A stretch of 25,319 bases of DNA from a virus. The position numbers were made by a program, and so were the translations under genes. The first letter of the stretch is position 1. Each line of letters opens with the position of its first letter. The notes beneath the pieces are model-generated. The model saw only the letters and a program-made list of their open reading frames with translations, did no database searches and was not told the origin of the DNA. The stretch is from IMG/VR virus record IMGVR_UViG_3300006802_000505, positions 1 to 25,319 of that record; one strand, given 5' to 3'. Below, one piece after another: positions 2,285 to 23,177 of this stretch.

Positions 2285-4138
2285 TTATTTAATTTTCGCT
2301 TTTAATTCTTTAATCGCTTGTAATAGTAATGGAACTAATCTATCGTATTTGATTGCTTTAATACCATCACTTCTTGTACCAACGATTTCAGGCATTACTG
2401 CTTCAACTTCTTGTGCAATCAAACCTACATCATGTTTTCTTACAAAGTATCCGTCAGCGCCACCTTTACTTACTATATAGTCATCTTTCCAATCAAAGAA
2501 TACACCTCTAATTTTATCAACCATATCTAAAGCAGATGGTATTTCTGTGATATTTTCCTTTAATGCAATGTCTGAACTGTAAAAGGCAGTTATATCATTT
2601 GTTGCTCTAATCTCTCCTGAAGTACCTGAAGCGGCAGTACCTACACCAAAACTATCTAATTGTACATCATTATCAGCAGTTGAATTTGATACAACAATTG
2701 TACCTGCTTGTGTTGGTAATGTAACATCAACATCTGAACCTATTGAAGAAGGACCTACTATTGTTATTGAATTAGTTCCGTTATCACTATCTTCAAAGAA
2801 TTTAACTTTACCTCCACTTGTAGCACCTCTTTTCATTTCTAATATATCATTAAAAGTTCCACCTGCATTGAATAGTGCTTTACCATTATCTGACATATCT
2901 AAAGTTAAGGCAGTAATACCTCCACCACCATCATTACCTGTAAATTTAATATCTCTATCTGATACTATTGTAGTTATTAATAAATCACTTGATGAATTAG
3001 ATAATGAAGCAAAGTGTGTACCATCATCTTTTAATTTAATATCTGCACCACCAGCGTCTAAGTTAATATCAGCGCTTGCATCTAAAGTAATATCTCCTGT
3101 ATTATCTATTTCTGCAATAACAGGTGTTGTTAATGTTTTATTTGTTAAAGTATCTGTTGTATCTCTACCAACTAGTGTGTCTGTAGATGTTGGTAATGTT
3201 AATGTACCAGAATTTACTATTGTAGCAATATTTGGTGATGTTAAAGTTTTATTTGTTAAAGTATCTGTTGTATCTCTACCAACTAATGTGTCAGTTGCAT
3301 CTGGTAAACTAACTATTCTATCAGCAGTTGGGTCCACAACAGTAAGAGTAGTTTCAAAACTATCATCAGTAGAACCTTCAAATATTACTGAACCTGAAGT
3401 TTCTGTATTACCTGAAAATATTGGACTTACTAAAGTTTTATTTGATAATGTTTCTGTATTATCTAATAATGAAATTGTACCTGTTGCATCAGGAATTGTT
3501 ACTGTTCTATCTGCTGTTGGATCAACAACGGTTAAATTTGTTTCAAAACTGTCAGCAGTTGCACCTTCAAATCTAAATGAATTTACAACATCTACAGTTG
3601 TAGAATTAATTGTTGTTGTAGTACCATTAACAGTTAGGTTACCTGCAATCGTAACATCTGCACCACTCATTGTCATAGCAGTTGTAGTACCTGATTTTAT
3701 AATTAAGTCACTACCTGTCGCCGTTAAACTACCAAAAGTAGTGCCACCATCTTTTAAAAAAATATCACCACCATCAGCATCTAAGTTAATATCACCTGAA
3801 GCGTCTAGTGTAAATGTACTAGCAGTAATTGTATCTATTGCTGGACTAGTAAATAAATTGGCAATAGTCATTTCTCTTATATCATTAGCGGAATCGTCTC
3901 TAATAATCATACTATCAGCAGTATCTGGTGCACCACCTAAATCAGTTGCAGCTGTAATAAAAGTTGAGTTTAATGGTTGAACTTCACTCTCTAATTCGTT
4001 CATTGCATCAACAAGATTTGATGCGGTAATAGTGGCAGATAAGTTTGCTATATCACCAAAATCATTTTCAGATAATGCATTAAACGTTGTTCTTAATTGT
4101 TCAATTGTTGCTGTTGCTGCTACTGTTCTTGCTGCCAT
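2285..4138 (-). CDS. Tail fiber with C-terminal S74 intramolecular chaperone
   Basis: 617-aa fiber. The N-terminus (residues 1-55) is helical; residues about 60-510 are beta-repeat fiber. Repeat modules sit at about 187-240 and 249-304 (FEG.T.DSFET.LTVVDPTADR then TLTNKTL), 318-342 (partial copy), and a second pair at 111-147 and 349-388 (LDAS.DINLD...IFLKDGG). The last ~96 residues form a Peptidase_S74 domain: SDIALKENI starts at S522, with K527 five residues later, followed by GLIAQEVEAVMPE and the YDRLVPLLLQAIKEL helix. In characterised endosialidase-type chaperones the equivalent Ser/Lys pair mediates self-cleavage after trimer folding, so the mature fiber should end near residue 521. The start is ATG one nucleotide after the upstream stop (TAATATGGCA), implying coupling; a late promoter lies 57 bp upstream inside the previous gene. 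Confidence 0.9.
   Translation of the reverse strand: MAARTVAATATIEQLRTTFNALSENDFGDIANLSATITASNLVDAMNELESEVQPLNSTFITAATDLGGAPDTADSMIIRDDSANDIREMTIANLFTSPAIDTITASTFTLDASGDINLDADGGDIFLKDGGTTFGSLTATGSDLIIKSGTTTAMTMSGADVTIAGNLTVNGTTTTINSTTVDVVNSFRFEGATADSFETNLTVVDPTADRTVTIPDATGTISLLDNTETLSNKTLVSPIFSGNTETSGSVIFEGSTDDSFETTLTVVDPTADRIVSLPDATDTLVGRDTTDTLTNKTLTSPNIATIVNSGTLTLPTSTDTLVGRDTTDTLTNKTLTTPVIAEIDNTGDITLDASADINLDAGGADIKLKDDGTHFASLSNSSSDLLITTIVSDRDIKFTGNDGGGGITALTLDMSDNGKALFNAGGTFNDILEMKRGATSGGKVKFFEDSDNGTNSITIVGPSSIGSDVDVTLPTQAGTIVVSNSTADNDVQLDSFGVGTAASGTSGEIRATNDITAFYSSDIALKENITEIPSALDMVDKIRGVFFDWKDDYIVSKGGADGYFVRKHDVGLIAQEVEAVMPEIVGTRSDGIKAIKYDRLVPLLLQAIKELKAKIK
3135..3285 (-). repeat. Pair of exact 40-nt direct repeats inside fiber gene
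   Basis: Positions 3135-3174 and 3246-3285 are identical over 40 nt and offset by 111 bp (37 codons, in frame). They encode the LVGRDTTDTLTNKT turn of two adjacent fiber modules. A degenerate copy occurs in the left fiber at about 497-536. In-frame loss or gain of one module by slippage or recombination would keep the gene intact. Confidence 0.85.
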
Positions 4139-4139
4139 A

Positions 4140-4358
4140 TTATTTTACCATTTTCTTTAGTAATTGTTTTATTTCAAACATTTCTGATTTTAAACTATTT
4201 ATATCTCTTACCGCATCTTTTAATTGATTGGTGTTATCTCTTGCTTCTCTAATACGTCTTACGTGCATTAAGTATGCACTTTTATCCGTATTAATTACAG
4301 CACGTGAAAAACTGTCTTTTATAATATTTCTATAACCTTGTACTTTATATTGTGCCAT
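4140..4358 (-). CDS. Small coiled-coil structural/accessory protein (72 aa)
   Basis: 72-aa basic helical protein; the second half (residues about 40-72, NQLKDAVRDINSLKSEMFEIK) has coiled-coil spacing. It lies between the 1976-aa structural gene and the 617-aa fiber with one-nucleotide gaps on both sides, each junction reading TAATATGGCA, so translation is probably coupled. There is no independent ribosome site. Location suggests a connector or chaperone between baseplate periphery and fiber; this is inference from context only. Confidence 0.7.
   Translation of the reverse strand: MAQYKVQGYRNIIKDSFSRAVINTDKSAYLMHVRRIREARDNTNQLKDAVRDINSLKSEMFEIKQLLKKMVK
4195..4203 (-). promoter_or_regulatory. 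Intragenic T4-type late promoter
   Basis: TATAAATAG on the minus strand inside the 72-aa gene (it encodes part of DINSLK), 57 bp upstream of the 617-aa fiber start. It matches the 9-mer at four clearer sites, so it may give the fiber its own late transcript; being in coding sequence, chance is not excluded. Confidence 0.55.
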
Positions 4359-4359
4359 A

Positions 4360-7300
4360 TTATATTGCTAACGCTATTGCTCTCATATCTGTTATTCTAG
4401 GAGGATATGCTGGGTTAGTTCCTTTCATTACTATTTTTATTTTAAATGCAACAAACTCGTTCATGTCTGCTTCGTTGTATTCATAGTCAAAAAAGTCAAG
4501 TTTAAAATTATCATTATAAGGTGATTGACTTCTACCTTCAGCACTCACAGCTGTATTTGATTGTGTCATTTGTACATAAGGTATATCTTTCATTTCTCTA
4601 TCATCACCTTCTGTTTTAATTTTTCTATAAACTTCAATAGAGGAAGTTGGAAAAATACTTGCTGCTATTCTAACATCTAAAGCAGTAGATGGATTTTCTA
4701 AATTAATTTCTTTAGTTACATACTTAGCACCAACACTACCACCAGTTGGGTCTGTTTCAGCAACAAAGTCTGTTCTATTACTTACTGTTGGATTATCAAG
4801 TTTATTATGTATAGCATATACATTTACTCTTGCTAAGTCAACCACAGGACTCACATTTGCGTTTGATGTTGATATATCAATATTATAAAATAAAGATTTA
4901 TTACCCGCTAAGTGTGTTGTTTCATTTATAGAACTTGCAATTGTTCTTGGATTTGTAAAGTAATAGTTTTCATTTGGTACAATTTCTGTAAATGTTGAAG
5001 ATGTAGAATACGGAGTTTCAGAACCATCAACTGAAGTTGTAGAAGTTGTTTTAATACTGTGTGCCATAGATGTATCTGGAAAATTCATTAAACCAATTTT
5101 AGGCATAATTGTTTCAAACGCTCTATCTTGCGTGGCAATTACACTTGCACCTCCAACTGAACCTGTAGAAGTCGCACTATCACCAGAAATTGTAATTGTG
5201 TAACTATCTTCAGTAACATTGGCAATATCATGTGTTCCATTGATTGCACTTCCTAAAATACCATTGTAGTCTGTTGTTCCGCTTAAACCTGATATAGTTA
5301 CTTTACTTGGTTTATTATCATTCATTCCATGATGTGGATGATTAACTTTTATAATAGCAGGATTAGTTCCAAATTCTGTACCAGAACCTGCACTTGAATT
5401 TGTTTCAATTGGATTATTATTAAGCGTTCTACTAGGTACAACATCATTTGTTAATGATAAAGTACCACTAACTGTTGTATCAAAAGCTGCTTTATATAAA
5501 GTTAATTTTAAATCTTCCATTTGATCATCTGTCCATAACGTTGCGTTTTGTGAACGGAATAAAGAACCAAATAAAGGTTGTTGTGTAATTCTTCTTGCAC
5601 CAGTAGTGTCAGTTTCACCTAATCTACTTACCCATGCTTTGTATTTTTGACTAGCAGGTTTTAATATAATCGCATATTCTTTTCCACCTTGTAGATAAAC
5701 AGGACTTGGGAATGTTACTGTTGTTGCTTCTGAAGCATCTGAACTTATAGTTACATTTGCAGCTGGAAGTGTTACTTCAGCAAATGGTAATATTCTTCTA
5801 CCAGGTCTGCTTTCAACTGTTTCTACTATATAAACTTTAATTGGTATATTTTCATCTTTTTCTGCAAAGTATAAATCAACTTTGGTTAAGAAAATACCTT
5901 CTTGGTCATAAACAGTAAATGTTTGTGCTAATGGATCAGGATTATTGCCACGTTCACCACCACCTTGTGGTTGTGGTCTTCTAGCATTTGCAGCTGCACT
6001 AAAGTTATCTACTGTTCTTCTTATATCTGTTTCACTTACATTTGTTCTACGAATAATTGGAACTCTAGTTGACTGTATAGTTTCTTGTGTAGTTGTTTGT
6101 AAACCTCTAGCAGTAAAAGTACCATCTGCAAAAGTATCAACATCATCATCTGTAGAACTATTAGTTGAGTTACTTGTTAGTCTGAATATTCTATCACCTG
6201 TTCTAAATCTTACTGCATCTGTGTTAGGTATTGCAAAAGTACCTGATACTGAACCTACACTATCTGTAACTAAAGCACCACCCAATACACCAGCATTTGG
6301 TGTAATATAAGAACCAACACTTACATTATCAAAGAATGGATATACTCTAGTGTTAGGTTTCATTCTCGTTGCTGAGAAAGAAATAGTTTGTGTTCTAATA
6401 AATGGTATAAATGCAACGTCAACTATTCTATCACCAAATGATTGTCTAATTACATTTGAACCTGCAATCTCTCTTGTTATACCTGTTCTTGTTCTACTTG
6501 TAACTGTTCCTGAAATTGTAGCACTTGCTGAAGAAAATGCCGTATTTGCTGATGCTGTTTGTGACCAAGCACCAGACCAGTTTGTTTGCCAGTTATTCCA
6601 AACTGTACCTAAACTGTTATTTGTTCCTGCAAGAGCAGTCATTGTATCAAATAAATTATTATCATTTATAATTAAATCAGGTCTTCTAGTTGTGTCGTAC
6701 CATTCATCAACATCTGGTGTTAATTGTATATCACCTTGATATTGAAATACTAAGAAAGGATTACAATTAACTGATTTTGATGCATAAGGATTTTTAGCAA
6801 ACTCAGCATGTTCATATGGTAAAGTTATTAAATCACCTGTTTTAGCATAACCAGCTGCCGTTCTTTCCGTGTCTGTGTCATTACTTGCTAACTCAATTAA
6901 TTTTACATTGTCAGCATGAAATTCTGGTCTTAATTCACCTTCAACCATATCCATAGAACATCTGTATTCTGGAGATAATATATCACCAACATTATGTCCT
7001 TTAAAACTATCTACAACAATACCATTTTTAAATCTGTCTAAACCTGTTACAGGATCTTGTATCTGTGTATTGATTGCTTGTTGTTCTAATAAAGATAGTT
7101 GAGTATAATATTCAATATTTTTAATACGTTGTTCTAACTTACCAATATCTCTCATTGTGTATCTTCTATTATCTACAACTTTAATTTTCACATCTGAAGT
7201 ATTAAATGTATAAGGTGGTAATGTTAGATAATATATTCCCATAGCATCATCAATTGCTTCAGGTCTTTGAGGATCAATAGCAGGTGTACCTTTTGCTTGT

Positions 7301-14769: not shown

Positions 14770-16626
14770 CTAACTCGCATAATTTGATGCTGTGGTATAT
14801 CCTATACCTGATGTTGTATCATAATCATCAGGAGTAACTGTTACAGTTGTATTGACTTCATCTATTTCTATAACTTGATTTCTAACTGGAACAATATCAA
14901 CTGATCTTGGACTAACTGTTAATCTTACTCTAGTTGACGGAAGTCCATCAACATCACCAACTTCAGAAACATGTAAACTATTTAAAGTAATTTTACCTGT
15001 TGCATAATCAATTGTACCTAATCTGTTGTTTTCATAAGTGTTAACACCGGCAATAACTCTATATAATCTTACATTACCAGCACCATCATCATTTATAAAA
15101 TGAGTATTTACTTCATCACCTGAAATTTTAAATCCTGATGAAGAAAGAATACCACCTTCTACCTGACGGTGTCCTTCATGTGGATTATAAAATGCGTTAT
15201 TAAAATTGATTGTATAAGTTGTTGGACCTGTTGTTGTTGCTAGAAAATCTTTATGTAATTTAACAGTTGTAACATTTGAAAGTATAGATGTATCAACTTT
15301 ATTAATTGTTTCTATGAATTTAGAATGCCTAAACACTTGGTCAAACTGTTGTAAGTTTTCTGTATTGTATGTTGTAATTGCCTCTTGCACTAATGATTTT
15401 AAACTGTTTGATGTTTTAGTTGTTGATTTAGCATCATATCTTACAGATACATTTAGTTGTAAAAATGTTTTTTCAGGATCCACAATAATTGGTGTAATAC
15501 TTGCTACGTTGAAATTTTTAAGTTGAGTTATAATATCAGACTTAGTTGTTTCTGTAAGTGTAGCACCAGCGACAGGATTAATAGAGATATATACTCTACC
15601 ATAAACGGGTGTATCATTATCTTCACCACCCCATACTTGAACTGAGTTAGCATTTGAATAAATTGATTTAACTTTACTTTCATAATCTTTTACCGTTACT
15701 GCCCTATTTTGAGTTGCATATTGTTTTGGTGCGTTGAAACGAATACTAGCAGGAGTTTCAGGATCAGAACCATTAGCACTTGCTACATTAGTTGTTATAC
15801 TAACATCACTAAATCCACCTACAGTACCAGATAAACTAAATGTGTTTGCACCATTACTATCCACACCATTTGTTACTATGTATGTTAATGAAACAATGTT
15901 ACCTGTTGATAATGATTGACCTAAAACGCCATCACCAAATTTAACTTCATACTGTTCGTCTTCAGCACCTTCTAAAAAGTAAACTGTAGAACTTGAATTA
16001 ACATCTGCTAAATCAGTTGACAATGAATAAGTTGTTGTTGTACTATCAGATGAACTATTTTGCACTCTTACTTGTAATGTGCTTGTATCTGCTAAGGCGT
16101 TTTTAATTAAAAATCTTTGATTAGCATTTGAAGTATCAACTACGTATTTATTTGTAACTAATGTACCTTCATAAATTCTTAAATTTGAAAAAGTATAAAC
16201 ACCACTCACTGGTGTAATGGTAGTATCTTCTTTTACAATATAGTTGTAAGTTGTACCATCAACTGTAGTTGTGAAAGTTGTACCTTGAGCGGCAGTTAAA
16301 GTTGAACCAGATGCATTGTTGACAACTAAATTTATATCAGCATATGGTGCTGTCGCACTTCTTGGTGTGTAACCTACATGTTTAGCATGTGAGACAATAC
16401 TGTTTCGTAAGTCAGCGCTATCTAAAAACATTTCATTAGCAAGAACATTGGCATAAATGGCATTGTAGTGTGTGTTATAAGATAGTACATCTAATAACGA
16501 AGACATAGCAGAACCTTCAAAATCATAATCAGTAAATTGGTCTTGTTGTCTTAAAAATTTTTTTAAATTAGTTTTGATTTCATCAAAATCTAAATCTGTT
16601 ACTTCTAATTTTTTATTCGTTGCCAT
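14770..16626 (-). CDS. gp6: Baseplate wedge protein gp6-like (Baseplate J-type)
   Basis: 618-aa protein (T4 gp6 is 660 aa). The N-terminus has the diagnostic FTDYDFEGSAMSSLLDVLSYN, followed by YANVLANEMFLDSADLRNSIV and a GYTPRSATAP turn (residues about 31-93), aligning well with T4 gp6 as recalled. The central region has the E..YEVKFGDGVLGQ segment typical of baseplate J/gp6 folds and a later APKQYATQNRAVTVKDYES motif. gp6 dimers knit the wedges into the inner baseplate ring together with gp25 and gp53. The ATG overlaps the gp25 stop by one base (TAATG), so the two are translationally coupled. Confidence 0.95.
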   Translation of the reverse strand: MATNKKLEVTDLDFDEIKTNLKKFLRQQDQFTDYDFEGSAMSSLLDVLSYNTHYNAIYANVLANEMFLDSADLRNSIVSHAKHVGYTPRSATAPYADINLVVNNASGSTLTAAQGTTFTTTVDGTTYNYIVKEDTTITPVSGVYTFSNLRIYEGTLVTNKYVVDTSNANQRFLIKNALADTSTLQVRVQNSSSDSTTTTYSLSTDLADVNSSSTVYFLEGAEDEQYEVKFGDGVLGQSLSTGNIVSLTYIVTNGVDSNGANTFSLSGTVGGFSDVSITTNVASANGSDPETPASIRFNAPKQYATQNRAVTVKDYESKVKSIYSNANSVQVWGGEDNDTPVYGRVYISINPVAGATLTETTKSDIITQLKNFNVASITPIIVDPEKTFLQLNVSVRYDAKSTTKTSNSLKSLVQEAITTYNTENLQQFDQVFRHSKFIETINKVDTSILSNVTTVKLHKDFLATTTGPTTYTINFNNAFYNPHEGHRQVEGGILSSSGFKISGDEVNTHFINDDGAGNVRLYRVIAGVNTYENNRLGTIDYATGKITLNSLHVSEVGDVDGLPSTRVRLTVSPRSVDIVPVRNQVIEIDEVNTTVTVTPDDYDTTSGIGYTTASNYAS

Positions 16627-17069
16627 TATCTGCTTCTTTCTAATAGTGTTGTGAGTTGTACTAACTCACCAGGTATATTTCTTACATAAAAACTTATTGT
16701 AACTTCGTAAGCATTTCTATCTAAATTAGGTCTTGCATCAACACTTACTAATCTAACTCTTGGTTCAAAATTAACAATCACTTCTTCAATAACTCTTGTT
16801 AAAGAATTAGCAGTAATTGGATTCATTGGCTCAAATAATATAGATGTAACATTTGATCCAATCTCAGGATGAAAAGGTCTCTCAAAGTGATTAGTTAATA
16901 TAAGATTTCTTACAGATTGTTTTACTGCCTCGACATCTTTTTTCACAATTACATCATCTGTATTTGAGTTTCTTTCAAACGATAATGCTAAATCTTTATA
17001 TAATCTAACACTTCTACCACTAGCGTTTATTCTTTGAGCGTCTCTATATCCTGATTTTACAATAGCCAT
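16626..17069 (-). CDS. gp25: Baseplate wedge protein gp25-like
   Basis: 147 aa from the ATG at 17069 (T4 gp25 is 132 aa). A GTG 21 nt upstream would add seven residues, but MAIVKSGYRD is a natural start and the upstream codons overlap the PAAR stop. It has the family core: HFERPFHPEIGSNV (about 61-74), LFEPMNPITA and the conserved EPR triad (residues 102-104 in FEPRVRL), shared with TssE and phage W proteins and important for binding the gp6-type partner. In T4, gp25 contacts sheath and gp6 and helps trigger contraction. There is no obvious ribosome site; a late promoter ends only 5 nt before the ATG. Confidence 0.93.
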   Translation of the reverse strand: MAIVKSGYRDAQRINASGRSVRLYKDLALSFERNSNTDDVIVKKDVEAVKQSVRNLILTNHFERPFHPEIGSNVTSILFEPMNPITANSLTRVIEEVIVNFEPRVRLVSVDARPNLDRNAYEVTISFYVRNIPGELVQLTTLLERSR

Positions 17070-17073
17070 AAGA

Positions 17074-17082
17074 CTATTTATA
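17074..17082 (-). promoter_or_regulatory. T4-type late promoter abutting gp25 start
   Basis: TATAAATAG on the minus strand, 4 nt before the gp25 ATG. If initiation occurs the usual 6-8 nt downstream of the element, the transcript would begin at or just past the ATG, giving a leaderless message or one that serves only downstream genes (gp6, gp7). Confidence 0.65.
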
Positions 17083-17086
17083 ACGA

Positions 17087-17386
17087 TCACCCAACAAAAA
17101 CGTTAGAACTTCCATCAGTTAATTCACCGGCATCTACAGCATCACCTACTCTCGCAACAAATTGACCACTAACTCTAACAGTTGATGAACTTCCTGATAT
17201 TGATGCTACGTGTGGAACACAAACTATACCACTAAGTATATCATGTGATACAGTATTATCATCATATCTAGCAATTAAGATACCATTTGCTCGTACTGTA
17301 GATTGACCAGGTGTGTCTAATGTACTTGTAGTATCACACAAATGTCCAGTGCTCAATGGATCGCCTTCTCTACAGACTTTTGGCAT
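17087..17386 (-). CDS. PAAR-motif spike tip protein
   Basis: 99-aa protein of the size of T4 gp5.4 and other PAAR proteins. It opens with KVCREGDPLSTGHLC, has the beta turn RANGILIARYDD, then TVSHD, VCVPHV and the closing RVSGQFVARVGDAVDAGE. Candidate zinc ligands are H15, C17, H48, C56 and H59; known PAAR tips bind one metal with His and Cys residues. It should cap the gp5 spike and form the membrane-piercing point. Its ATG overlaps the stop of the 48-aa gene by one base (TAATG), and gp25 follows directly. The spike body gp5 is 5 kb away across the accessory island, an unusual separation. Confidence 0.88.
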   Translation of the reverse strand: MPKVCREGDPLSTGHLCDTTSTLDTPGQSTVRANGILIARYDDNTVSHDILSGIVCVPHVASISGSSSTVRVSGQFVARVGDAVDAGELTDGSSNVFVG

Positions 17387-18520: not shown

Positions 18521-18868
18521 TTATTTATACATCTTATCATATTGACCTGCATATATTTCATCTACTTGTTGTTGTGTAGTTAATACATATGCACCTATAT
18601 GAGTATAACCTTGAAGTTTTGCCCATATAATTCTACGACCACCTGCCTGCCATTTACGATAACGTCCATTTATTTCTCTTACCATTATAGGGTGAAGCAT
18701 GCCATCTTTTTCCATACTATCAAATAATTTTTTATAATTAATACCATGAGCATCAGCATATGATCGCCAATCACCTAATACGTTATCCCATTTGTATGAT
18801 ATATCTTTGATTGCAAGTACAGTATAATATTGTGAATGTGTAATTTGTTTTGCCTCTAAAACTTTCAT
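18521..18868 (-). CDS. ParB-like (ParBc fold) protein B (115 aa)
   Basis: 115 aa from the ATG at 18868, whose ATGA overlaps the stop of the preceding ParB-like gene; a start 15 nt further up is possible but less natural. It contains the two ParB N-domain boxes: GMLHPIMV (residues 56-63, equivalent to the G..xPI.V box) and AGGRRIIWAKLQGYTHI (75-91, matching the GERR box with GGRR at 76-79). There is no helix-turn-helix or dimer domain, so it is not a full partition ParB. Stand-alone ParBc proteins in phages are variously annotated as nucleases; known ParB domains bind CTP. It is a diverged paralogue of its neighbour. Activity unproven. Confidence 0.75.
   Translation of the reverse strand: MKVLEAKQITHSQYYTVLAIKDISYKWDNVLGDWRSYADAHGINYKKLFDSMEKDGMLHPIMVREINGRYRKWQAGGRRIIWAKLQGYTHIGAYVLTTQQQVDEIYAGQYDKMYK
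18522..18529 (-). promoter_or_regulatory. T4-type late promoter
   Basis: TATAAATA on the minus strand overlapping the stop of the ParB-like gene and 8 nt before the 27-aa frame. It could drive the downstream small membrane genes (27, 54 and 55 aa) as a late unit ending at the terminator near 18000. Confidence 0.55.
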
Positions 18869-19200
18869 AATCTTTTCTTCCAATATTCATCTGATTGAGT
18901 AAACTTAAATATCTGATTGTAAACTTCTTCACTAGTTGGTTCATAACAATCTATGTGTGTGTATCCGTTTTGTTTAGCATACCATACACGTTGATGACCT
19001 ACGATTACTGAATAAGATATATTTGGATTGAGAATGATTGGATGCATCATTCCATTTTCATTTAAATCTTTCATTAAACTTTCTAAACGAAATGAACCAC
19101 CGTGCTTTGAATTATAATCTATAAAGTTACCCAGCATATTGACGTGATAAACTTTGTGGTATTCTGGAAACTCTATGTGTTTGGCAGAGAGGAGTTTCAT
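18865..19200 (-). CDS. ParB-like (ParBc fold) protein A (111 aa)
   Basis: 111-aa protein with the same layout as its downstream neighbour: GMMHPIIL at residues 50-57 and GHQRVWYAKQNGYTHIDCY at 68-86, where GHQR takes the place of the ParB GERR motif. Both proteins begin MK(L/V)L.AK.I and share a GYTHI turn, so they are tandem duplicates. The first conserved Arg of GERR is replaced by Gln here and retained in the partner, hinting at different roles or a heterodimer. Upstream lies a possible sigma70 promoter; the ribosome site is weak. Confidence 0.75.
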   Translation of the reverse strand: MKLLSAKHIEFPEYHKVYHVNMLGNFIDYNSKHGGSFRLESLMKDLNENGMMHPIILNPNISYSVIVGHQRVWYAKQNGYTHIDCYEPTSEEVYNQIFKFTQSDEYWKKRL

Positions 19201-19284: not shown

Positions 19285-19992
19285 TTATACTACTATATCT
19301 AGTTGAGGTCTTCCATTATCTCTTGTCAATGGTACACTTCTTACTCTATTCATAGGAAGACCAGATGCAATCACCTTATGCATAAAGGTTACAATTGTTA
19401 ATCTATCATCCTGTGTATCTGTACCAAAATCTTTTACACCATGCCATATATGACTATCAAATCCTATCATACGATTATACTTGTTTGCAAAAAAACAATC
19501 TTCAATAAATCCTGCATTATGTTTATCTTGGTAAGGTTGTTGTTCATCTATTGTAATTTCACCACGATAATATTTTTGTTTAATGTCTGTAAATTGACAT
19601 TGAGTATTCATGTTAATAGGTTTGTACAATGATGTACCTGATTTTGGGTGTGCATCAGGTGTTAAGTAAATGATTGTAGTATGAATGTCTGGAAAGTCAG
19701 AATGAATCCAACCGTGTTTGTATTGACTAGGTATTCGTTGAAAGAAACTTGTTGCTTCAAAACGAATATTTTGATTATTCATTTCATCATTTGTCCAGAA
19801 AGAAGTAAAATACTTTTTCTGCATCCATGCCCAAAACTCCTCATCTAATAGATGAATAGGTTGAGAACGATATCCGGGCCAGTTACCACTCTCGTGTGGA
19901 CGCCATTCTATTTTATCAGACTTTGCCATCTTTACAACATCATCTGGTGCATCAAAAAAATTATCAATCACCGTAGTGGGAAAATGTATCAT
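19285..19992 (-). CDS. 2-oxoglutarate/Fe(II)-dependent oxygenase family protein
   Basis: 235-aa protein. The iron-binding triad is visible: H97 and D99 in GWIHSDFPDIHTTIIYL, and H184 in FDSHIWHGV, followed by R197 in DRLTIVTF as the likely 2-oxoglutarate anchor. The strand after HxD (TTIIYLTPDAHPKSGTSLY) is typical of this double-stranded beta-helix family. The N-terminal part (VIDNFFDAPDDVVKMA) is the usual lead-in for phage members. Such genes are frequent in marine T4-like phages; the substrate (protein, nucleic acid or small molecule) is unknown. AAAGGAAA lies about 11 nt upstream of ATG. The gene sits in the accessory block upstream of the ParB-like pair. Confidence 0.85.
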   Translation of the reverse strand: MIHFPTTVIDNFFDAPDDVVKMAKSDKIEWRPHESGNWPGYRSQPIHLLDEEFWAWMQKKYFTSFWTNDEMNNQNIRFEATSFFQRIPSQYKHGWIHSDFPDIHTTIIYLTPDAHPKSGTSLYKPINMNTQCQFTDIKQKYYRGEITIDEQQPYQDKHNAGFIEDCFFANKYNRMIGFDSHIWHGVKDFGTDTQDDRLTIVTFMHKVIASGLPMNRVRSVPLTRDNGRPQLDIVV

Positions 19993-20011: not shown

Positions 20012-20227
20012 CTATGCGCCGTTGAAGGCATCAACATCATCTGAATTAGTATTCACTACTGGTAATTCTTCTTCGTTAATCTTTAATTCTTTTTCTAGTG
20101 CTTCTACTCTACTTTTAAGTTTTTCTATTTCGTCCATTAATTCTTTAATTGACATTTCGTTATTCTCCTTTTCACTTGTACATTCTCCACAACACTCTGG
20201 TGTGCCACAATGTATATGTTTGTTCAT
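20012..20227 (-). CDS. Small Cys-rich / coiled-coil protein (71 or 47 aa)
   Basis: The longer form (71 aa) begins with a Cys cluster HCGTPECCGEC (C7, C12, C13, C16), a possible metal knuckle, then a coiled coil (IKELMDEIEKLKSRVEALEKEL). A strong ribosome site (AAGGAG, 9 nt away) lies before an internal ATG at 20155, which would give a 47-aa coiled-coil-only protein. Both forms may be made; I cannot decide. A 10-bp hairpin stands just upstream of the longer start. Function unknown. Confidence 0.6.
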   Translation of the reverse strand: MNKHIHCGTPECCGECTSEKENNEMSIKELMDEIEKLKSRVEALEKELKINEEELPVVNTNSDDVDAFNGA

Positions 20228-20294: not shown

Positions 20295-20492
20295 CTACCA
20301 ATTGTTATTTGATTTTGGTGAATAATGACCAAGTATTTTATCTTTGTTAGGTCCATGTTTAATTCTATAACCAGATGTTCCGCCGCCGTTTATTTCAACT
20401 TCTCGTCTGGCACTAAACATTGCCTTAACTTTTTTTTCTTGGTCTTTTGACTTACTGTATTGTTCTAATACTCTTGTATGTCTATCTTTCAT
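20295..20492 (-). CDS. Small basic hypothetical protein (65 aa)
   Basis: 65-aa Lys/Arg-rich protein with a very strong ribosome site (AAGGAGG, 6 nt before ATG). It contains a central Gly-rich turn (EINGGGTSGYRIKHG) and no recognised domain. It is the first gene behind the consensus sigma70 promoter at 20618-20646, so probably expressed early by host polymerase. Small, basic, early phage proteins often modulate host processes, but that is only a general expectation. Confidence 0.7.
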   Translation of the reverse strand: MKDRHTRVLEQYSKSKDQEKKVKAMFSARREVEINGGGTSGYRIKHGPNKDKILGHYSPKSNNNW

Positions 20493-20617: not shown

Positions 20618-20646
20618 ATTATATCACATATTGTATGTTTTGTCAA
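20618..20646 (-). promoter_or_regulatory. Perfect consensus sigma70 promoter
   Basis: On the minus strand TTGACA (20641-20646) and TATAAT (20618-20623) are separated by exactly 17 bp. This is the textbook strongest form, expected to be used by host RNA polymerase right after infection. It points toward the basic 65-aa gene and the accessory genes beyond. The divergent gap 20493-20731 also holds the GAAC repeat and, for the plus strand, only a weak TTGCAC (20689-20694) with a poor -10. Confidence 0.88.
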
Positions 20647-22133: not shown

Positions 22134-23177
22134 CTAGTTTAAGTCTATCGTACCACCGTCTATATCAACACTATCACTACCTACTACATCAAAGTTACGT
22201 GAAGTAATACTAATGTTGTTTGATGCATCTATACGTAGGTTATCCATAGACATATTCATATCACCATCTACGAACTGATTGATATTACCTTTGACGTTCA
22301 TATTTAAATCACCGTTACGGACCATAATGTTAATATTGGCGCCTGCACCTACTTCAATATCATAGTGATTGCCTGCCGTATCATTCTTATTCACCTTAAT
22401 CTTTAATGCACCGTCTATAGTACGTACCTCGTCTCCGCCTACAAACGCAAAGGAATTGCTGTTGACAATGTCGTATTTATCTGATATAATAGAACTTACA
22501 TAAGTGCCGTCATTGCTATACTCCTGGTAAGAGCCGGCTGCATGGGAGAGGTGTACTCTCCGCTGTCCTAATGTATCGTCAAACTCTAATACGTGTCCGC
22601 TTTCTGTAGTGGTAACGTGATTGTATGGATACTGTGGTGCATAGGTGCCATTCACTACAAGAGGCACATCAAAGGTCGCTCCACTACTACCTGGAATTGT
22701 AAGATTACTTCCTACTGTGGGTATATCAAATCCATCAAAGTCAGACGTTGCAATTGCCGTACGCCTGTTACTATCTCTGGTTACGGGATTGTTCGCTGTT
22801 TGTTCTCCTCTGGCAAGCTCAGATACATCACTCTCACCTGCAACGAGAGGATACTTTCCAAACGGATCACGGAAACCTAATTCTGATTGTGCTCCAGCTT
22901 CTGCCGGTCGTCCTGGTAATGCACCATGGATCAAAGGTTCTTGCTTATCACTATCTCTAAACGTAATATAGACCCACGTGCCTTCTACAAAGAAAGGAGG
23001 TGTTGTACCTAGTCCAGAGTTACCGCCAGACGATACCAATACGGTTGCCCATGGCAGCTCAGAGATAGGTAAAAGATTACGCTCTGCTGGGTGCAAACCT
23101 AATACTCTCACACGAAAACGTCCTAGTTTCTCTGGATCGTTCCTGTCTTCTATCACACCTATGTAATAATTTCTCAT
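22134..23177 (-). CDS. gp5: Baseplate hub spike, gp5-like without lysozyme domain
   Basis: 347-aa protein against 575 aa in T4. The N-terminal OB-fold is clear: YYIGVIEDRNDPEKLGRFRVRV, LPWATVLVSS and GTWVYITFRDSDKQEPLIHG (residues about 4-85). The linker lacks anything like the T4 lysozyme domain, which accounts for the shorter length. The middle has NHVTTTESGHVLEFDD and RRVHLSHAAGSYQEYSNDG, as in gp5/VgrG spikes, and the C-terminus is an octad-type beta-helix (VRNGDLNMNVKGNINQFVDG, SVDIDGGTIDLN). It should trimerise on the gp27-like hub and carry the PAAR tip. Its start overlaps the 34-aa gene (ATGA). GC content looks higher than in the wedge genes. Confidence 0.92.
   Translation of the reverse strand: MRNYYIGVIEDRNDPEKLGRFRVRVLGLHPAERNLLPISELPWATVLVSSGGNSGLGTTPPFFVEGTWVYITFRDSDKQEPLIHGALPGRPAEAGAQSELGFRDPFGKYPLVAGESDVSELARGEQTANNPVTRDSNRRTAIATSDFDGFDIPTVGSNLTIPGSSGATFDVPLVVNGTYAPQYPYNHVTTTESGHVLEFDDTLGQRRVHLSHAAGSYQEYSNDGTYVSSIISDKYDIVNSNSFAFVGGDEVRTIDGALKIKVNKNDTAGNHYDIEVGAGANINIMVRNGDLNMNVKGNINQFVDGDMNMSMDNLRIDASNNISITSRNFDVVGSDSVDIDGGTIDLN

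Follow-up and report, generated by a model that had tools for sequence, protein, structure and literature searches.

The closest described systems are the N-terminal CTPase domain of ParB, Noc and KorB (PF02195), sulfiredoxin (Srx), and the free serine kinases SerK and SbnI. SerK and SbnI phosphorylate free serine. The ParB fold binds ATP, GTP or CTP also in roles far from chromosome segregation (PMC12704722). In ParB, the GxxR sequence contacts the nucleotide phosphates and constitutes the published P-motif (PMC12704722). Phages encode short ParB-fold proteins of ~100 aa that consist of nearly the domain only. Such one-domain versions were noted as uncharacterised by Kaljevic et al. 2025 (PMC12704722), and the main text of that study makes no mention of a tandem, a heterodimer or an oxygenase.

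Here, we analyze a pair of similarly short genes, A and B, in a 25,319-nt stretch of viral DNA related to Pelagibacter phage HTVC008M (IMG/VR record IMGVR_UViG_3300006802_000505; the whole 25-kb stretch is hereafter the window). The initial annotation described a tandem, overlapping gene pair with the ParB box layout in both proteins, and both ORFs and their motifs were found as described (Table 1). The motifs are GMMHPII...VGHQRVWYAKQNGYTHI in A and GMLHPIM...AGGRRIIWAKLQGYTHI in B, with an invariant KWD at residues 26-28 of B. An in-frame TTG at 18883 provides an alternative start for B and would add 5 aa. Literature searches retrieved nothing joining HTVC008M with ParB, or 2OG oxygenases with cyanophages and ParB. 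While the fold is known, neither the pairing nor its genomic context seems to have been described in the searchable literature.

Table 1. Features of the window and of related sequences discussed in the text.
Feature	Sequence	Position	Strand	Remarks
PAAR/gp25/gp6 genes	window	14770-17386		T4-like baseplate module
Gene B, single-domain ParB/Srx-fold protein	window	18521..18868	-	ATG start, 115 aa; P-motif GGRR; AF2 pLDDT 86.7
ATGA stop/start overlap	window	18865..18868	-	B's ATG over A's TGA; translational coupling
Gene A, single-domain ParB/Srx-type protein	window	18865..19200	-	ATG start, 111 aa; P-motif GHQR; fold from homology, AF2 model of A alone poor
DUF6445, 2OG-oxygenase-like gene	window	19285..19992	-	just upstream of A; PF20043, E 4.4e-12; phrog_1644; HxD...H visible
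Short coiled-coil-like gene	window	20012..20227	-	upstream; retained in several relatives
First ORF after the sigma70 promoter, 65 aa	window	20295..20492	-	good ribosome site
Perfect sigma70 promoter, extended -10	window	20618..20646	-	12/12; reads toward oxygenase, A and B
gp5-like hub gene	window	22134-23177		T4-like baseplate module
Perfect sigma70 promoter, extended -10, inside gp5 gene	window	22462-22490	+	antisense; also L026, L135, L138
A-B in-frame fusions	L047, L048, L049, L058, L059, L061, L066, L094, L095			one ORF, ~240 aa
Porin gene	L018	5815-6672		next gene after B; Porin_4, E 1e-13
Gene recorded as 'DNA endonuclease V'	HTVC008M (L018)	26549-27034 (4324-4809)		also phrog_274; 2OG-FeII_Oxy_3 above cut-off, E 1.3e-7
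AGE60490, 363 aa	L354 (HTVC008M)	4018-5109		third ParB-like domain at C-terminus
Tryptophan halogenase gene	L222	2098-3516		PF04820, E 1.4e-89
Tryptophan halogenase gene	L128	5020-6168		PF04820, 2.1e-32

Fold and motifs of the two proteins

The two proteins are full-length paralogs with 31% identity over 108 aa (BLASTP E 4e-16). Together with a profile-profile comparison at 99.2% and a dN/dS of about 0-0.23 for each gene (six pairs each), this makes a chance relationship untenable. Both score below the PF02195 ParB_N gathering cut-off of 26.3 bits (A 19.2, B 22.9), hence a survey based on PF02195 may miss them. Some relatives exceed the cut-off (the L047 fusion with 33.1, L131 with 28.7), and the family profile matches ParB structures at 4e-5 to 1e-3 (4umk 4.2e-5; 6sdk 3.1e-4). 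The AF2 model of B is predicted as a ParB/sulfiredoxin/SerK domain. Compared with the PDB, the model yielded 15 matches at E <= 0.001, all to ParB, Noc, KorB or Srx, with SbnI just above this limit. The top structural matches were all ParB, Noc, KorB, PadC, Srx, SbnI or SerK, led by the sulfiredoxin 6ky4. Scores to SbnI, SerK and ParB were alike (Z 6.8-7.4). The search tool itself rates a Z of around 7 as middling; the list nonetheless comprises a single superfamily. The model of A was built from 14 close sequences and was unusable (pLDDT 47.7), though A likely shares the fold of B given their homology. The predicted ParB-like fold is hence supported by a model for B and by homology for A.

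The initial annotation considered the GERR motif of ParB to be altered differently in each protein. The motifs do differ (GHQR versus GGRR), but the loss implied was overstated. Both still fit the published GxxR of Box II and may therefore have retained nucleotide binding. A and B also resemble the ParB, Noc and KorB domain in the predicted fold of B and in a Box I-like helix and loop (G-M/L-x-x-P). They depart from it by the replaced Glu of GERR, by an extra conserved N-terminal stretch (HIEFPEYHKVY in A) and by their arrangement as a tandem hetero-pair. Sulfiredoxin is likewise a single-domain ParB/Srx-fold protein of similar size. However, its catalytic Cys in the GxxR motif is absent from both A (G-H-Q-R) and B (G-G-R-R), and we know of no peroxiredoxin partner for either protein.

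Unlike ParB, Noc and KorB, neither protein contains an HTH (profile search) or a C-terminal dimer domain. The ParB domain fills both proteins and leaves no room beyond ~110 aa. The missing DNA-binding and dimer domains had been correctly recognized, and on sequence grounds the pair is not a partition system. Databases nonetheless label such proteins as partition protein or 'ParB-like nuclease', which would make the pair a DNA-directed regulator or nuclease acting on host or phage DNA. We consider such a role very unlikely. No nuclease motif accompanies the missing HTH, and no defence-system family matched well (PADLOC: weak matches only). Furthermore, the SerK group includes an archaeal ParB-like protein for which nuclease activity had once been reported (PMC5120207).

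Duplication, pairing and fusion

A phylogeny of 124 domains resolves A (52 sequences; 94/88) and B (49 sequences; 99/99) as one clade each. Both clades group together (97/93) apart from the wider family, and inner forks are weak due to the short alignment. The P-motif is GHQR in 49 of 50 A proteins and GGRR in all 48 B proteins. At the level of sequence, this shows that A and B stem from one ancestral duplication and that the P-motifs diverged afterwards before freezing separately. Duplication followed by specialisation had been proposed from the window, and the sister clades with their own frozen motifs agree with it. The separately frozen motifs suggest unequal roles of A and B.

B is found just downstream of A, on the same strand and within 1.1 kb, for 41 of 50 distinct A proteins. 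The two genes are adjacent in 26 cases, separated by one gene in ten and by two genes in five. A single intervening gene encodes a SAM-methyltransferase annotated as spermidine synthase-like (PF00891, 1.8e-11), and the second is a 2OG oxygenase (PF13640, 1.3e-7), which is the gene recorded in HTVC008M as DNA endonuclease V. The junction, with its ATGA overlap in the window, is the site of both insertions and fusions in relatives. In-frame A-B fusions were found in nine contigs representing five sequences. A further seven distinct A proteins are joined to a different ParB-like domain, which is highly divergent and has GNNR. Among contigs with the gp5 closest to that of the window, those of sufficient extent carry both A and B, apart from exceptions such as L142/L143. 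Neither gene is present at the cyanomyophage-like loci, whose gp5 is more distant. The proposed co-conservation of both genes holds for most pelagimyophages, but B occurs alone in L083, L111 and L142/L143 and A occurs alone in L067. Pairing is hence not obligatory.

The intervening genes and the occasional loss of either gene could also mean that A and B never touch. The paralogs might serve different partners and be kept together by phage gene order alone. This seems unlikely given the in-frame A-B fusions and the second, independent fusion of A to another ParB-like domain. The natural A-B fusions lend indirect support to the idea of a heterodimer. Considering fusion and co-conservation together, the most parsimonious interpretation is probably that A and B act jointly.

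Genomic setting in the baseplate module

The pair lies inside a T4-like baseplate module, between the gp5-like hub gene and the PAAR/gp25/gp6 genes. The neighbouring oxygenase of the initial annotation was recovered as a DUF6445 gene, and a DUF6445 oxygenase-like gene is located at most 100 bp from A also in several relatives. A perfect sigma70 promoter precedes, in order, the 65-aa ORF, the coiled-coil gene, the DUF6445 gene, A and B. The shuffled window contains a mean of 0.2 such perfect sites. HTVC008M has no sigma70 site of at least 11/12 at the corresponding place, and the window shows no enrichment of the late-promoter motif ATAAATA. The promoter could lead to early production of A and B in the phage of the window, which would suit a DNA-directed role. 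The description of the region as an early-type block is doubtful for a pair inside the baseplate module, even though the island in the window has its own perfect promoter.

A 2OG oxygenase within 2.5 kb was absent at 12 of 28 pelagimyophage A loci with enough flank, hence the link to the enzyme is loose there. The HTVC008M gene recorded as DNA endonuclease V is probably a misannotated oxygenase based on its domain match. Most A/B loci carry a porin gene directly downstream of B, which is absent from the window. A second perfect promoter lies antisense inside the gp5 gene of the window, and HTVC008M and one other contig have sites at a comparable position.

Possible functions and the wider family

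We suggest that A and B form a hetero-pair of NTP-binding mini-ParB domains acting as one unit near modification enzymes, a proposal to which we give an even chance. The unit would be a heterodimer, and a fused pseudodimer in some phages. By analogy, the domains may be arranged like the two facing N-domains in the nucleotide-bound ParB clamp, with each domain holding an NTP through its own GxxR motif. The Glu of the ParB GERR is gone in both A and B, therefore the unit is probably a nucleotide-binding switch or a kinase-like transferase rather than a ParB-type DNA clamp. The baseplate module contains a small island that encodes modification enzymes (2OG oxygenases and a SAM-methyltransferase), and the two genes are part of it. 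Given this location, the most likely target would be either a virion protein or something produced by the island enzymes, which is the weakest step of the proposal. More specifically, a phage-specific two-component mini-ParB unit might use nucleotide together with 2OG-Fe(II) oxygenases and the methyltransferase to tailor virion proteins made late in infection. We regard this extended scenario as quite improbable. This protein family from SAR11 phages combines conserved pairing with naturally fused forms and neighbouring enzyme genes, which makes both partner and function testable. The host of pelagimyophages is the most common bacterium of the ocean. A true link to 2OG oxygenases would also be relevant to the question of why these enzymes are so numerous in marine phages.

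The main rival of the nucleotide-binding hetero-pair is a SerK-like kinase. The pair, or one paralog with the other as non-catalytic partner, would phosphorylate a hydroxyl possibly made by the neighbouring 2OG oxygenase. SerK and SbnI belong to the same superfamily and match the B model as well as ParB does, and the GHQR of A recalls the His-rich motif of SerK. A and B are about half the length of these kinases, whose catalytic Glu lies toward the N-terminus. In HTVC008M, the family of A and B has a third ParB-like member, a domain joined to a protein with a weak glycosyltransferase match (AGE60490) in a cluster of radical SAM, methyltransferase and carbamoyltransferase genes. A profile scan further recovered relatives in unrelated phages (L127-L133, L207-L223). 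Nearly all directly adjoin 2OG-Fe(II) oxygenase genes, spanning at least three unrelated phage contexts, with L023/L024 and L131 as exceptions. However, 41 of 60 comparable tail loci (MAHFAE-gene module) without a ParB-like gene also contain an oxygenase, which makes adjacency there weakly informative. Overall, we consider a kinase unlikely.

A contingency test of 2OG oxygenases against ParB-like genes across 61 tail loci gave p = 1, with only one ParB locus having full flanks. As oxygenases are common in tail loci anyway, we claim no obligate link. No bacterial relatives were confirmed in a scan of bacterial genomes with profile A5 (12 pattern hits). The distant relatives in L127, L128 and L133 have GIEQ or GSEQ and lack the Arg of the P-motif. 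Oxygenase genes next to the wider relatives are sometimes accompanied by a tryptophan halogenase, and halogenase genes were observed in the marine-phage 2OG oxygenase clusters of L222 and L128.
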